Assembly (NCBI RefSeq): GCF_003788635.1
Contig: NZ_AYKH01000040.1
Coordinates: 1-64,000, forward strand
Direction: 5' to 3'
From: Salinisphaera orenii subsp. orenii MK-B5
GTDB taxonomy: Bacteria > Pseudomonadota > Gammaproteobacteria > Nevskiales > Salinisphaeraceae
DNA: 64,000 nt
The position numbers and the translations under genes were made by a program. Shown here piece by piece: positions 47,053 to 52,862 of this stretch (the first letter of the stretch is position 1; each line of letters begins with the position of its first letter). The notes under the pieces are model-generated. The model searched no databases. It was not told the origin of the DNA and saw only the letters and a program-made list of their open reading frames with translations.

Positions 47053-47676
47053 TCAAAGGGGGACCAGGTCGATGTCGCCGATGGGCCGGTCGCTGGCCAG
47101 GCAGGCGGCATAGCCGGCCGCCAGTTCCAGTCGCCGCAGCGGCCAGTCGAGGCCGTCCAGCCGGGCGTGATCGGCGTGGAGCGTCAGCGCCTTGATGCGC
47201 GCCAGTCCGACCCGGCCGCTGGCCTTGACGGTGGCCTCACGCGCGCACCAGTAGTCGAAGAACCGCGGCGGGTCGGCCAGCGCGATCGCCCGTTCGTCAC
47301 CGCTCAGCAGTCGGGCCAGGCGTGTCGGCGAGCGCGGTCGTCGCGCTTCGACGTCCAGGCCGATCGCGGCGCCTTCCGGGGCGATGGCGCAGGCGACCAA
47401 TGCCTCGCTGTGGGAGATGTTGAACGGCGGCCCGCCGTCGATCTCCGGCCGGCCGTCCGCGCTGAAGCCGAGCCGCGCGAGCGCGCCGTCGTCAAAGCCG
47501 CGGGCGCGCAGCCCGTGATCCAGCAGCCAGAGGCCGGCGAGCGTGCGCCGGCGGGCCTCGATGCTGCGCATGCGATCGAGGCGCCCGCGGTATGCCGGCG
47601 GGAGGTCGGCGCGGGCGCCAAATCCATCCACTCGATCGCTGCTGGATGCATCTATTATGGTGTATAGTACATGCAT
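47053..47676 (-). CDS. 4'-phosphopantetheinyl transferase (Sfp type)
   Basis: Transfers the phosphopantetheine arm from CoA to carrier-protein serines (207 aa). The three Sfp-family motifs are FNISHSE (85-91), GLDVE (106-110, metal ligands) and WCAREATVKASG (143-154; the usual WxxKEA has Arg for Lys). It has the two-repeat Sfp size rather than the short AcpS type. It is divergent from the P450/FAAL-ACP genes, which include a carrier domain needing exactly this modification. The start at 47676 leaves only 77 bases to the preferred P450 start, so the promoters share a short AT-richer spacer. Confidence 0.9.
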   Translation of the reverse strand: MHVLYTIIDASSSDRVDGFGARADLPPAYRGRLDRMRSIEARRRTLAGLWLLDHGLRARGFDDGALARLGFSADGRPEIDGGPPFNISHSEALVACAIAPEGAAIGLDVEARRPRSPTRLARLLSGDERAIALADPPRFFDYWCAREATVKASGRVGLARIKALTLHADHARLDGLDWPLRRLELAAGYAACLASDRPIGDIDLVPL

Positions 47677-47753
47677 AGCGGAATCTTGATATGCCGAACG
47701 TCGGTGGCAGGCCCGTGGGCCGGACCCGCCCGATCGGCGCGGGGTCGTGCCAC

Positions 47754-49064
47754 ATGGCGAGCAGCCTATCCGAAACGTCGGCGCCGGTCGGTCTCGCCGG
47801 GCCGCGGACCGCGTTCCCGATCGCGCCGGACGACGAGACCCGGCGCATGCTGTGTCGCTGGCATGGCGAGTACGGGGCGGTGTATCGCGTGCCCGACACG
47901 CGCGGCGGGCCGGACCACTGGGTCGTACACGATCCGCGCCTGGTCCGGCTGGTGCTCGTGCAGCGCGGGGCGGACTACGAGAAGGGCCGGGGCCTGGATC
48001 GCGTGCGGCTGCTGCTGGGCGAGGGCATCATGGTCAGCGAAGGCGCCTTCTGGGCCCGCCAGCGGCGTCTGATGCAGCCGGCGTTCCGGCCCCGGGCCCT
48101 GGCCGATTTCAACGCCATGATGCTGGCCGAGAACCGTGCGCTCGCCGAGCGCTGGGCCGCTGCAGCTACAGGCGGCGCGGCCGTGGACGTGGCCGCGCAT
48201 ATCAGCGAGCTGACGCTGGTGATCGTGCTCAAGTCGATCTTCGGGCGCGATTACGCGGCGCTCGTGGCCGCCCATGGCAATCCCTTCGCCCTGCTGACCG
48301 AGGCGCCCGAACGCGATCTGCGCTTCGCGGCGCGCTTCCATCGCCTGACCGGGGTGGTCGCGGCCGTCGTCGAGCGGCGCCGGGCCGCACCGCGGCCGGC
48401 GTTCGATTTTCTCGGCCATATGCTGGCCGCGCGCAGCCGGACGGGCGCGTCGATGAGCACGCGGGCGCTCATCGACAAGGTCATGACCCTGATCGTCGCC
48501 GGCCACGAGACCACCGCGAGCCTGCTCGCCTGGGCGTGGTATCTCATCGCCACCCACGAGGATGTCTGCGCGCGGGCCCGGGTCGAGGCGGAGGCCGTCG
48601 ATGAGGCGGCGTTGGGGACTCATGGGCCCGGGGCCGATCTGCCGTTCATCGGTCGTGTCATCGACGAAACGCTGCGGCTGTATCCGCCCGGCTGGCTGCT
48701 GTCGCGTCGCGCCCGCGTGGACACGGATCTCGGCGCGCATCGGCTGCCGGCCGGGTCGCAGGTGTTCATCAGCCCCTATGTGCTCCATTGGCACGATGCC
48801 CACTGGCGCGATCCCGAGCGCTTCGACCCGGCGCGCTTCGCGCGCGGCGACGAGCCGGGCCACCGGTTCGCGTTCGTGCCCTTTGCCGCCGGGCCACGCC
48901 GCTGCGTGGGCGAGCACATGGCGCGCACGGAGATGGGGATGCATCTGGCGGTCATGCTGCGGCGCTTCACGCCGCGCTACGCCGGCGAGGCGCCCCCGGC
49001 GATGGAATCGCGCATCAACCTGCGGCCCGCGGCCGGAATTTATTTACAATTGACCCAGAGATAA
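47754..49064 (+). CDS. Cytochrome P450
   Basis: Heme-thiolate monooxygenase of 436 residues from the ATG at 47754; an alternative ATG at 47691 would add 21 residues but crowds the divergent gene. There is no membrane anchor, so it is soluble. The oxygen-binding I-helix motif is AGHETT, the K-helix is ETLRLYPP, and the heme loop FAAGPRRCVGEHMAR carries the cysteine ligand (residue 384 of this start). It is placed 18 bases before the FAAL-ACP gene, so the likely substrate is an acyl group or acyl-carrier thioester. No ferredoxin or reductase gene is adjacent. The CYP family cannot be set by eye. Confidence 0.9.
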   Translation: MASSLSETSAPVGLAGPRTAFPIAPDDETRRMLCRWHGEYGAVYRVPDTRGGPDHWVVHDPRLVRLVLVQRGADYEKGRGLDRVRLLLGEGIMVSEGAFWARQRRLMQPAFRPRALADFNAMMLAENRALAERWAAAATGGAAVDVAAHISELTLVIVLKSIFGRDYAALVAAHGNPFALLTEAPERDLRFAARFHRLTGVVAAVVERRRAAPRPAFDFLGHMLAARSRTGASMSTRALIDKVMTLIVAGHETTASLLAWAWYLIATHEDVCARARVEAEAVDEAALGTHGPGADLPFIGRVIDETLRLYPPGWLLSRRARVDTDLGAHRLPAGSQVFISPYVLHWHDAHWRDPERFDPARFARGDEPGHRFAFVPFAAGPRRCVGEHMARTEMGMHLAVMLRRFTPRYAGEAPPAMESRINLRPAAGIYLQLTQR

Positions 49065-49082
49065 GCAGTTCACGATCTTTCT

Positions 49083-51038
49083 ATGCCTTCATTCCATACC
49101 CTTGCCGAGGCGCTGGACGCGCAGATCGACGGCTCCGGCGAAATCGGTTTCATCGACGGCGCCAACGACGAGCGCCGCGTCAGCTACGGCCTGTTGTCGC
49201 GGGCCGCGCTGCGGCTGCTGGCCGTGCTCCAGGCGCGCGGTGCGCAGCCCGGCGATCCGCTCGTGCTGTTCGTCGACGATAATCTGCATTTCCTGCAGTT
49301 CTTCTGGGCCGCCATCTACGGCGGGCTGGTGCCGGTGCCCATCGCGGCCGGTGCCTCGGAGGTGCACTTGGAGAAACTGGCCCGGGTCTGGGCCCATCTG
49401 GACGAGCCGCGGGTGGTCGCCGGCGCCCGCCACATGGCGCGTCTGCGCGCCTACTTCGAGGCGCGTGGACAGGCCGATGCGGGCGCGCGCCTGGCCGACA
49501 ACGCGGTGTCCGACGAGCCCTCCGCCGTGGAACGCGAGGCGGTGCGGGCCACGCCGGGGCCCGACGACACCGCCTTCATCCAGTTCTCCTCCGGCTCCAC
49601 CGGCGATCCCAAGGGGGTGGTGCTCAGCCACGCCAACGTGCTCGCCAACATCCGTGCCATCAGCGAGGGCTCGCGCTTCGGCGCGCGCGAGGTGGCCGTG
49701 TCCTGGATGCCGCTGACCCACGACATGGGCCTGATCGGCTTTCACCTCACGCTGGTCTGCAACGGCTTCGATCATCATCTGATGGCAACGGACCTGTTCG
49801 CCCGCCGGCCGCTGCTGTGGCTTGACAAGGCCGCGGAGAAACGGGCCACGCTGCTGTGCTCCCCGAACTTCGGTTATCGCCACACGCTGCGGGCGATCGC
49901 CGCGCGGGGCCGGCCCGACGTCGATCTCTCGGCGGTGCGCCTGATCTACAACGGCGCCGAGCCGATCGCCGCGCCGCTGGTGCGCGAGTTTCTCGACACG
50001 CTGGCGCCGACGGGGCTGGCGGCCGGCACCATGTTCCCGGTCTACGGGCTGGCCGAGGCCAGCCTGGCGGCGACCTTCCCGCCGGCCGGTGCCGGGCTGC
50101 GCACGCGCCGCGTGGCGCGCGGCGAGCTCGGCGTGGGCGACGCCGTGCGTTTCGACGATTCCGATCAGGCCATCGAGCTGGTCGATCTCGGCCGCCCGGT
50201 GGCGGGCACGCAGCTGCGCATCGCCGATGCCGAGGGCCAGGCCCTGGCTGACGACGTCGTCGGCCGGGTGTGGATCCGCGGCGACAACGTCACCGCCGGG
50301 TACCACCGCAACGCCGCGGCCAACGAGGCCGCGCTGATGGGCGACGGCTGGCTCGACACCGGCGATCTCGGCTTCACCCACGACGGGAATCTGCTGATCA
50401 CGGGCCGGGCGAAAGAGATCATCTTCGTCAACGGCCAGAACCACTATCCGCAGGATCTCGAGAACGTCGCCCAGGCCGCGGCGGGCGTGGAACTCAACAA
50501 GATCGCCGCGGCCGGCGTGCGCCCGCCCGGCGGCGATGCCGACGAACTGGTGCTGTTCGTGGTCTTTCGCGGCCATCTCGCGGATTTCGTGTCGATGGCG
50601 CGCGAGATCGCGGCCGTTATCAACCACCACACCGGGCTGGCGGTCGCCCGCGTGCTGCCGGTCGCGCACATGCCCAAGACCACCAGCGGCAAGCTGCAGC
50701 GATCGCTGCTCGCCCGCGATTATGCCGACGGCGCGTTCGCAGACGTGGCCGCGGAATTGGACGCGCTGATGCAGCCCGCGGCGGCCGATGACGACGAAAT
50801 CGGCGATGGCGGCGACGTCGCCGCGGATCTCAAGGCGATCTGCGACGAGGTCGCGCCGAACAAGCGCATCGGCTACGACGACGATCTGTTCGAGATCGGC
50901 CTGTCGTCGCTGGAGCTGGCCCAGATCCACGAAGGCATCGAGGCCCGCTGGCCGGACCGGCTGGACATGACCGATCTGTTCGACTATCCGACGATCAACG
51001 ATCTGGCCGCGTTTCTGGAGCGCGAGCGCGTGGCCTGA
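49083..51038 (+). CDS. Fatty acyl-AMP ligase fused to an acyl carrier protein domain
   Basis: Adenylating enzyme of 651 residues. The ATP loop is QFSSGSTGDPKG (167-178), followed by WMPLTHDMGLIG (208-219) characteristic of the FAAL group, YGLAEASLA (321-329), GWLDTGDLG (422-430) and the C-terminal catalytic Lys537 in TTSGKLQR. Residues 575-650 form a carrier domain with DLFEIGLSSLEL; Ser609 is the phosphopantetheine site. It activates a fatty acid and may load it onto its own carrier. P450 upstream and a divergent phosphopantetheinyl transferase complete the minimal set. No elongating or releasing enzyme follows. Confidence 0.88.
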   Translation: MPSFHTLAEALDAQIDGSGEIGFIDGANDERRVSYGLLSRAALRLLAVLQARGAQPGDPLVLFVDDNLHFLQFFWAAIYGGLVPVPIAAGASEVHLEKLARVWAHLDEPRVVAGARHMARLRAYFEARGQADAGARLADNAVSDEPSAVEREAVRATPGPDDTAFIQFSSGSTGDPKGVVLSHANVLANIRAISEGSRFGAREVAVSWMPLTHDMGLIGFHLTLVCNGFDHHLMATDLFARRPLLWLDKAAEKRATLLCSPNFGYRHTLRAIAARGRPDVDLSAVRLIYNGAEPIAAPLVREFLDTLAPTGLAAGTMFPVYGLAEASLAATFPPAGAGLRTRRVARGELGVGDAVRFDDSDQAIELVDLGRPVAGTQLRIADAEGQALADDVVGRVWIRGDNVTAGYHRNAAANEAALMGDGWLDTGDLGFTHDGNLLITGRAKEIIFVNGQNHYPQDLENVAQAAAGVELNKIAAAGVRPPGGDADELVLFVVFRGHLADFVSMAREIAAVINHHTGLAVARVLPVAHMPKTTSGKLQRSLLARDYADGAFADVAAELDALMQPAAADDDEIGDGGDVAADLKAICDEVAPNKRIGYDDDLFEIGLSSLELAQIHEGIEARWPDRLDMTDLFDYPTINDLAAFLERERVA

Positions 51039-51370: not shown

Positions 51371-52105
51371 CTAGCCCTCGTCGCGCTTTCGGCCGCGACG
51401 GCCCGGTATCGGGTCCGCGCCCGCCATGCGATCGGCTTCGGCGCTGAGCGTGTCCAGTTGGTCGCCGAGTGCGGCCGCGCGGCTTTCCAGGTCCTCGCCG
51501 CGGGCGATCGACTGCGGCGCGCCGATGACGAGCGTCACCCGCGCGAACGGCTTGGGGATGATGACCCGGTCCCAGGATTTCAGCTGCCAGTAGCGATCGG
51601 CGGAGAAGGCCAGCGGCAGCAGCGGGGCGCGTGTCATCTGCGCGAGCATCACGGTGCCGCTTTTCACCCGGTTCGCCGGTCCGTGCGGGCCGTCCGGGTG
51701 GATGATCGGCGAAATACCCTCGCGCAGGGTCACGTAGAGCGCCCGAAGTGCCCGCGCGCCGGTGCGGGTCGCCGATCCGCGCACCACCGTCGCCCCCAGG
51801 CCGGTGACCAGACGGGCGGTGAGCTCGCCGTCCCGCGAGGGCGAGACGAGAAAGCCGGGGCGCAGCCCGCGGGCCCGGGCTTCGAGCAGATAGCTCACGC
51901 AGCCGGTCAGCCGCTGGTGCCAGCAGCAGGGCAAAAACGCCCGCTGTTCGTCGAGTAGCGCCGACAGGTGGGTCTCGCCGGCCACGTGCTCGATGCGCCA
52001 GCTCGCCCGCAGCAGGCGCGCGGCCAGCCGCAGCAGCGGCACGGCCAGCGGCATCCAGAAGCGTGTCCAGCCCGTAAGAGGCGTTGCCGAATCGTCGTCT
52101 GTCAC
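51371..52105 (-). CDS. Lysophospholipid acyltransferase family protein (DUF374), copy 2
   Basis: DUF374-type acyltransferase of 244 residues. The usual NHQSxxD block is replaced by CCWHQRL (60-66). Other family blocks are RPGFLVSPSRDGEL, VRGSATRTG, IIHPDGPHGPA and WQLKSWDRVIIPKPFA. One N-terminal hydrophobic stretch (LAVPLLRLAARLLR) suggests membrane association. It follows a paralogue on the same strand by seven bases, so they are probably co-transcribed. The acyl acceptor is unknown; a lipid head or amine is likely. Confidence 0.82.
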   Translation of the reverse strand: MTDDDSATPLTGWTRFWMPLAVPLLRLAARLLRASWRIEHVAGETHLSALLDEQRAFLPCCWHQRLTGCVSYLLEARARGLRPGFLVSPSRDGELTARLVTGLGATVVRGSATRTGARALRALYVTLREGISPIIHPDGPHGPANRVKSGTVMLAQMTRAPLLPLAFSADRYWQLKSWDRVIIPKPFARVTLVIGAPQSIARGEDLESRAAALGDQLDTLSAEADRMAGADPIPGRRGRKRDEG

Positions 52106-52112
52106 CTGTGCG

Positions 52113-52862
52113 TCAACCGTGTCCTGTCTGGGCCGCCTCGGCGAGTTCGTTGAGTGTGTCCAGGCGTTCGCCGATCTCCCGGGCGATGCGATCGGCGTGC
52201 GCGTCGTCCGTCAACGCGCCGATCGACCAGGGTTCGCCCACGGCGACGGTGAGTCGCGCGAACGGCTTGGGGATATGGCCGCTGTCCCAGGACTTCAACT
52301 GCCAGTAGCGATCAGCGGCGCAGCCGACCAGAAACAGCGGCGCGCCGGAACGACTCGCCAGTATGGCCGCCCCGACCTTGAACACGCCAGCCGGCCCCCG
52401 CGGGCCGTCGCCGTACATGGTCGGGGAAATACCCTCGCCGATCGCCTGCACCAGCGCCTGCATCGCGGCCTGGCCGGTACGGCTCGATGAGCCGCGGATG
52501 GTGGTCGCGCCGTGGGCCAGCGCCACCCGGGACAGGAATTCGCCCTCGCGCGACGGGCTGATGAGGAAACCCAGCCGCAGACCGCGCGGAATCAGCGTGC
52601 GCAGGAACAGCCCGCTGGGCACGATGCGCTGGTGCCAGCCGCAGGGCACCACCGGGCGACCGCCCTCGAGCGTGGCCCGGACGTGTTCGGCGCCGTGCAC
52701 GACCTCGATGCGGCAGGTCAGCCGGTACACCCACACCAGGACGATGCAGGCCCAGGCGGCCACGCGCATGACCATCCGCTGGCGCCAGGTCGGCGGTTTG
52801 CGGGGCTTCGACGCGCGCCGTCGGTCGCGCGCAGGGTCGGGCCGCTCGGGTTGTTCTGCCAT
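52113..52862 (-). CDS. Lysophospholipid acyltransferase family protein (DUF374), copy 1
   Basis: Paralogue of the downstream gene (249 aa). It has a basic, proline-rich N-terminus, one membrane helix (residues 31-47, VMRVAAWACIVLVWVYR), GWHQRI (76-81), LGFLISPSREGEF, IRGSSSRTG, MYGDGPRGPA and WQLKSWDSGHIPKPFA. The tandem copies share these blocks almost exactly but differ elsewhere, so they have probably specialised, as in two-step acylation. The ATG at 52862 is preferred; the open frame upstream runs antisense over pncB. It is divergent from pncB. Confidence 0.82.
   Translation of the reverse strand: MAEQPERPDPARDRRRASKPRKPPTWRQRMVMRVAAWACIVLVWVYRLTCRIEVVHGAEHVRATLEGGRPVVPCGWHQRIVPSGLFLRTLIPRGLRLGFLISPSREGEFLSRVALAHGATTIRGSSSRTGQAAMQALVQAIGEGISPTMYGDGPRGPAGVFKVGAAILASRSGAPLFLVGCAADRYWQLKSWDSGHIPKPFARLTVAVGEPWSIGALTDDAHADRIAREIGERLDTLNELAEAAQTGHG

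Follow-up and report, generated by a model that had tools for sequence, protein, structure and literature searches.

In the AcpXL-LpxXL system of rhizobia and Agrobacterium, a special carrier holds an oxygenated very-long-chain fatty acid, which a dedicated acyltransferase adds to lipid A as a secondary chain (PMC11901934). DUF374 corresponds to a further group of lipid A late acyltransferases, the LpxJ family; in Helicobacter, Campylobacter, Wolinella, and Rickettsia, LpxJ attaches the 3' secondary acyl chain to lipid A and replaces LpxM (PMC6148475). Here we analyze a locus in a 64,000-nucleotide stretch of the genome of Salinisphaera orenii subsp. orenii MK-B5 (positions 1 to 64,000 of contig NZ_AYKH01000040.1, forward strand; hereafter the window), in which two DUF374 genes lie next to genes for a fatty acyl-AMP ligase with a C-terminal carrier domain (FAAL-ACP), a cytochrome P450, and an Sfp-type 4'-phosphopantetheinyl transferase (PPT). 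The conserved core of this locus is FAAL-ACP together with a DUF374 acyltransferase, and a P450 is usually found directly upstream of the FAAL. We propose, with a probability of about one half, that the locus would produce an oxidised fatty acyl group attached to a carrier of its own and pass this group to an envelope lipid, most likely lipid A.

The composition of the locus was surveyed in two sets of genomes. A genome scan with the FAAL gave at least 576 loci, of which the best 80 were analyzed; these are biased to close relatives and come from Salinisphaera, Panacagrimonas, Steroidobacteraceae, Lysobacterales, Thiotrichales, Chromatiales, and others. Enough flanking DNA to be informative was available at 58 of the 80, a set that is by construction selected on the FAAL. 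A P450 lies directly upstream of the FAAL in 51 of these 58 loci and a DUF374 gene lies near it in 52, while an LpxL-type lipid A acyltransferase is also close by in 12 and a PPT is present in 34. The initial annotation had described P450, FAAL-ACP, and PPT as a self-contained trio and had called for a survey of their co-conservation. The three genes are real, and P450 and FAAL-ACP are indeed strongly co-conserved across Gammaproteobacteria, but the PPT accompanies them much less regularly and the trio is the wrong unit, since DUF374 accompanies the FAAL no less often than the P450 does and is still there when the P450 has been lost.

The second set was an unselected sample of 274 genomes taken evenly from Gammaproteobacteria. 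All 14 of the P450 orthologs scoring above 300 bits in this sample are directly upstream of a FAAL (the FAAL of G265 being at a contig edge), and two weaker P450s, at about 211 to 217 bits, do not resemble members. In 13 of the 17 genomes with a FAAL, a DUF374 gene is found no more than about 3 kb away. An LpxL-family gene abuts the FAAL in place of DUF374 in G172 and G033, and the remaining 2 FAALs are at contig ends. Since DUF374 is present in only 37 of the 274 genomes, in one or two copies each, we estimate that a FAAL and a DUF374 gene would be adjacent by chance in a fraction of a percent of cases per genome.

The arrangement of the genes points in the same direction. At L102, P450, FAAL, and DUF374 follow one another in this order on one strand with the transferase divergent, and at L089 the P450, AMP-ligase, and carrier are fused into a single protein of 1122 residues. 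Other apparent P450-FAAL fusions among long open reading frames were rejected as read-through in another frame, leaving L089 as the only real one. Seven loci (L038, L039, L045, L050, L051, L103, and L104) have no P450, yet the FAAL and DUF374 are still together. Because such lineages keep the FAAL-DUF374 pair, the core appears to be one of acyl transfer, with the P450 added as a tailoring module. The distances of the three proteins co-vary (r 0.83-0.90).

The genes for PPT, P450, and FAAL-ACP are all intact in the Salinisphaera genome, and the identities first assigned to them, a ligase with its own carrier serine (Ser609), a P450 18 bases upstream of it, and a divergent Sfp-type transferase, were borne out by domain matches and conserved motifs. 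FAAL-ACP (49083-51038, forward strand) combines an AMP-binding fold (PF00501, 182 bits) with a PF00550 carrier domain. The A10-type lysine is present in a PKTTSGK motif, with K532 and K537 conserved, and the FAAL-specific insertion (region 331-370) can be aligned with the FAALs of E. coli (3pbk) and Legionella (3kxw) with no large gaps; in McyG, about 19 residues of this region are absent. The nearest NCBIfam relative is the fatty acyl-AMP ligase family PRK09192, at 385.8 bits against a cut-off of 600, and the closest PDB chains are FAAL or FAAL-like domains. The carrier domain occupies residues 586-645 (50838-51017), and its phosphopantetheine serine, Ser609 (codon 50907-50909), lies within GLSSLE and is shared by at least 95% of 82 homologs. 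The protein is 98% identical to the FAAL of S. halophila YIM 95161. L017, a record labelled Endozoicomonas sp. G2_2, has the Salinisphaera gene order and a FAAL that is 82% identical, and its label is probably wrong. In Panacagrimonas perspica (L030:10145-11956), FAAL-ACP is followed by a second, stand-alone FAAL, and at L042 (6642-7901) and L082 (6628-7998) a radical SAM protein with SPASM-like cysteines is encoded directly upstream of a FAAL paralog.

The P450 (47691-49064, forward strand; PF00067, 215 bits) is the only one in the genome. Its heme-ligating Cys405 (codon 48903-48905), E326xxR329, and the I-helix acid-alcohol motif AGHETT are kept across 67 homologs. Met22, at 47754, is a likelier start than 47691, since the latter is only 14 bases from the start of the PPT gene and neither homology nor model confidence sets in before residues 17-40. 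The structural model (predicted local distance difference test score, pLDDT, of 85) has as its best PDB neighbors CYP184A1 with oleic acid, CYP97, and CYP102A1, which suggests that the enzyme is structurally akin to fatty-acid P450s such as CYP184A1 and CYP102A1. Variants of the P450 position were seen elsewhere in the survey. Two tandem P450 genes lie upstream of the FAAL at L068 (1854-4170), and the P450 of Salinisphaera sp. GH4 (L076:6657-7981) is broken by a frameshift, which reflects either an error of assembly or decay of the gene. At L039 (9836-11311) and L050 (9997-11322), two of the loci with no P450, a flavin adenine dinucleotide-dependent oxidoreductase with the look of a tryptophan halogenase comes after the FAAL, within a longer co-oriented cluster; this oxidoreductase may substitute for the P450.

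Downstream of the FAAL and convergent with it are two DUF374 genes, a (51371-52105, reverse strand; PF04028, 67.5 bits) and b (52113-52790, reverse strand; PF04028, 61 bits; start codon uncertain), and these are the only two in the genome. The residues essential in Rickettsia typhi LpxJ are W60, H61, D86, D132, W172, and D173, which we located by means of the local peptides in the primer table of the same study (PMC6148475). In an alignment of 73 DUF374 sequences from the surveyed loci, the corresponding W62, H63, D138, W178, and D179 show no variation wherever they are present; at position 92, 64 sequences have Asp and 8 have Glu. DUF374 a carries all six (W62, H63, D92, D138, W178, and D179), and DUF374 b, as read from its translation, has the same residues except for Glu at the D92 position. 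The model of DUF374 a (pLDDT 91.6) finds Acinetobacter LpxM as its best PDB match, followed by the mannoside acyltransferase PatA, with TM-scores of about 0.5 that mark a likeness at the level of fold only. Only a single LpxL/LpxM-family gene (PF03279) is present in the genome.

In one gammaproteobacterium whose DUF374 gene is not linked to a FAAL, this gene adjoins those for KDO transferase, LpxK, and a cytidylyltransferase, which fits a lipid A role for DUF374 in this class. A quick tree placed the FAAL-linked DUF374s apart from the unlinked ones, the exception being the sequence from L113, which adjoins a PPTase gene. L113 (3501-4861) comes from a class genome without FAAL or P450 matches, and its DUF374 gene overlaps the PPTase gene, possibly as the remnant of a P450/FAAL locus. 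At several loci (L037:2028-4550, L032, L036, L045, L047, L051, and L073), a PMT/ArnT-like membrane glycosyltransferase and a family 2 glycosyltransferase are encoded near DUF374, as in lipid A sugar modification.

The PPT (47053-47676, reverse strand; PF01648, E 3e-7) has conserved G106xD108xE110 and W143xxxE147A148xxK151 motifs and is the sole PF01648 match above cut-off in the genome. A second, weak PF01648 match, about 23 kb further downstream, falls in a small monooxygenase-like protein and does not resemble AcpS. A separate AcpS for the fatty acid synthase carrier would mark an Sfp-type PPTase of secondary metabolism; a TIGR00516 search of 17 Salinisphaeraceae genomes gave no AcpS match above cut-off. 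With no AcpS and no other PPTase detected, the locus PPT must also arm AcpP, as PcpS of Pseudomonas aeruginosa does, and is presumably a housekeeping gene too. A PPTase dedicated to the FAAL carrier was rejected on the same ground. In several of the 17 genomes the locus Sfp-type transferase is the only PPTase, and it is possible that it is a natural replacement of AcpS in Salinisphaeraceae. The whole genome contains 2 phosphopantetheine-binding domains (PF00550), the FAAL carrier and one other, presumably the AcpP of fatty acid synthase. The initial annotation had noted the absence of polyketide synthase (PKS) and nonribosomal peptide synthetase (NRPS) genes nearby, and none were found near the locus. 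With only one other carrier in the genome, a PKS/NRPS destination for the FAAL carrier is unlikely, and use by a remote assembly line was rejected on this count.

These predicted proteins, the FAAL, carrier, P450, PPT, and LpxJ-type enzymes, are intact with their catalytic motifs and are co-inherited, and we propose that they act in sequence. Judging from its sequence, the PPT very likely arms Ser609 of the FAAL carrier. The FAAL would then adenylate a free fatty acid and load it onto its own carrier without coenzyme A (CoA), a reaction established for the family, so that we expect fatty acid loading here with strong confidence. The P450 would hydroxylate or otherwise oxidise the carrier-bound acyl chain, a step in which we have moderate confidence because of the P450-FAAL pairing, the one natural fusion, and the structural kinship with fatty-acid P450s. 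A DUF374/LpxJ-type enzyme would then take the acyl group from the carrier and esterify it, with a secondary chain of lipid A as the most likely product. Our confidence is again moderate for the transfer and weaker for lipid A as the acceptor. An acceptor role for the DUF374 enzymes had already been suggested, and the conserved FAAL-DUF374 linkage supports it. On this proposal, DUF374 would supply the release step that the same annotation had described as missing locally. Extended to the class, this becomes a widespread gammaproteobacterial salvage route in which free fatty acids are captured by FAAL-ACP, hydroxylated by the P450 on the carrier, and installed as lipid A secondary chains by a specialised LpxJ subfamily, a tentative generalization for which we would put the odds somewhat short of even.

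Several observations weigh against this proposal. The correlated distances partly reflect shared vertical descent, the linkage is imperfect (DUF374 is about 7 kb off at L018 and there is none near at L076), and the Salinisphaera DUF374 genes face the FAAL from the other strand and are not co-transcribed with it. Some FAAL paralogs adjoin radical SAM proteins and not a P450. A separate PF05118 (LpxO-type) hydroxylase candidate is encoded once elsewhere in the genome, so the P450 is not needed for lipid A 2-hydroxylation, and this candidate weakens the case for the P450 as the default lipid A 2-hydroxylase. The FAAL-linked DUF374s are also divergent, most of them scoring 62-76 bits to the Pfam model versus 95-101 for many unlinked ones, so their acceptor may have changed, and members of the DUF374 family could work on other lipids; in the tree, a FAAL-linked group of its own has modest support (0.785).

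That divergence, the separation from the DUF374 beside KDO transferase and LpxK, and the presence of PatA among the distant fold matches would be consistent with the same loading and oxidation followed by transfer to a lysophospholipid, an amino-acid lipid, or another glycolipid in place of lipid A. We consider this rather unlikely, since all of the LpxJ essential residues are kept, LpxL-type lipid A acyltransferases adjoin the FAAL where DUF374 is missing or in addition to it, and LpxM is the best fold match. P450BioI acts on the carrier of fatty acid synthase and cleaves the acyl-ACP chain for biotin synthesis by way of pimelate. On this known precedent, invoked in the initial annotation, the P450 could instead cleave or hydroxylate the chain so that a free hydroxy or dicarboxylic fatty acid, or a precursor, is released, with DUF374 as an unrelated neighbor; no local thioesterase would be necessary if hydrolysis happened elsewhere. 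We found no specific support for such cleavage. The linkage of DUF374 survives the absence of the P450 and rearranged gene orders, and no thioesterase or biotin gene recurs among the inspected gene clusters of the FAAL loci, which makes this explanation distinctly improbable.

FAALs are typically natural-product enzymes (PMC11837247), and FAAL-ACP might accordingly load a starter unit for a small secondary metabolite, of a jamaicamide- or polyyne-like kind, with the P450 tailoring the starter. This is very improbable in a genome with two phosphopantetheine-binding domains and no detected assembly line. Moreover, no complete Salinisphaera genome lacks the locus, and its proteins co-vary from one family to another, which is not the pattern of a patchily distributed metabolite cluster. 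We give equally little credence to the idea that these genes are neighbors by descent only and share no pathway. Within Salinisphaera the housekeeping genes purD, NUDIX, NAPRT, and thiC are syntenic as well, but their synteny does not extend beyond this genus, where P450, FAAL, and DUF374 nevertheless keep together in varied orders and on varied strands, and P450 and FAAL can even be fused.

If transfer of a P450-oxidised chain from the FAAL carrier to lipid A is correct, lipid A biosynthesis would, within the openly licensed literature searched, gain its first FAAL and its first P450. We found no FAAL-P450-acyltransferase gene set, and no FAAL or P450 joined with lipid A, described in that literature, which is weak as evidence of absence; nor did we find anything relevant there about 2-hydroxy fatty acids in Salinisphaera. 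A 2025 review of FAALs does not mention P450, and its single 'lipid a' string is unrelated to lipid A. The outer-membrane lipid would be remodelled with P450-oxidised fatty acids, taken up or recycled, by a CoA-independent route, and LpxJ-type enzymes would gain a private acyl donor. Oxygenated lipid A chains that do not stem from the LpxO or AcpXL systems would be explained, and the FAAL-P450-DUF374 set of many uncharacterised Gammaproteobacteria, including Salinisphaera and Steroidobacteraceae among others, would be given a function.

Each of the described systems resembles part of this proposal. In the JamABC and polyyne cassettes, a FAAL loads a dedicated carrier on which an oxidative enzyme modifies the chain (PMC11837247, PMC8406139). 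Their oxidative enzymes are membrane desaturases, however, and their products are secondary metabolites and not a membrane lipid, whereas the Salinisphaera locus has no assembly line. In caryoynencin biosynthesis a P450 acts late. P450BioI provides the likeness of a P450 working on carrier-bound acyl chains, but has neither a FAAL nor an acyltransferase partner. The LpxJ enzymes of Helicobacter, Campylobacter, and Rickettsia belong to the same Pfam family as the DUF374 proteins studied here, and the essential Trp-His, Asp, and Trp-Asp are kept; no FAAL or P450 partner is described for LpxJ (PMC6148475), and the FAAL-linked DUF374s, as predicted acyltransferases, form their own group. In the AcpXL-LpxXL system, AcpXL, FabF/FabZ, and a dehydrogenase build the chain de novo without a FAAL or P450, and the acyltransferase is LpxL-type and alphaproteobacterial where that of the present locus is LpxJ-type. 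No dedicated FabF/FabZ elongation genes, and no ketosynthase or dehydratase, recur among the inspected gene clusters of the FAAL loci. The Salinisphaera locus is thus not a member of the AcpXL-LpxXL system, but the logic that we propose for it, a special carrier served by a dedicated acyltransferase, is the same.

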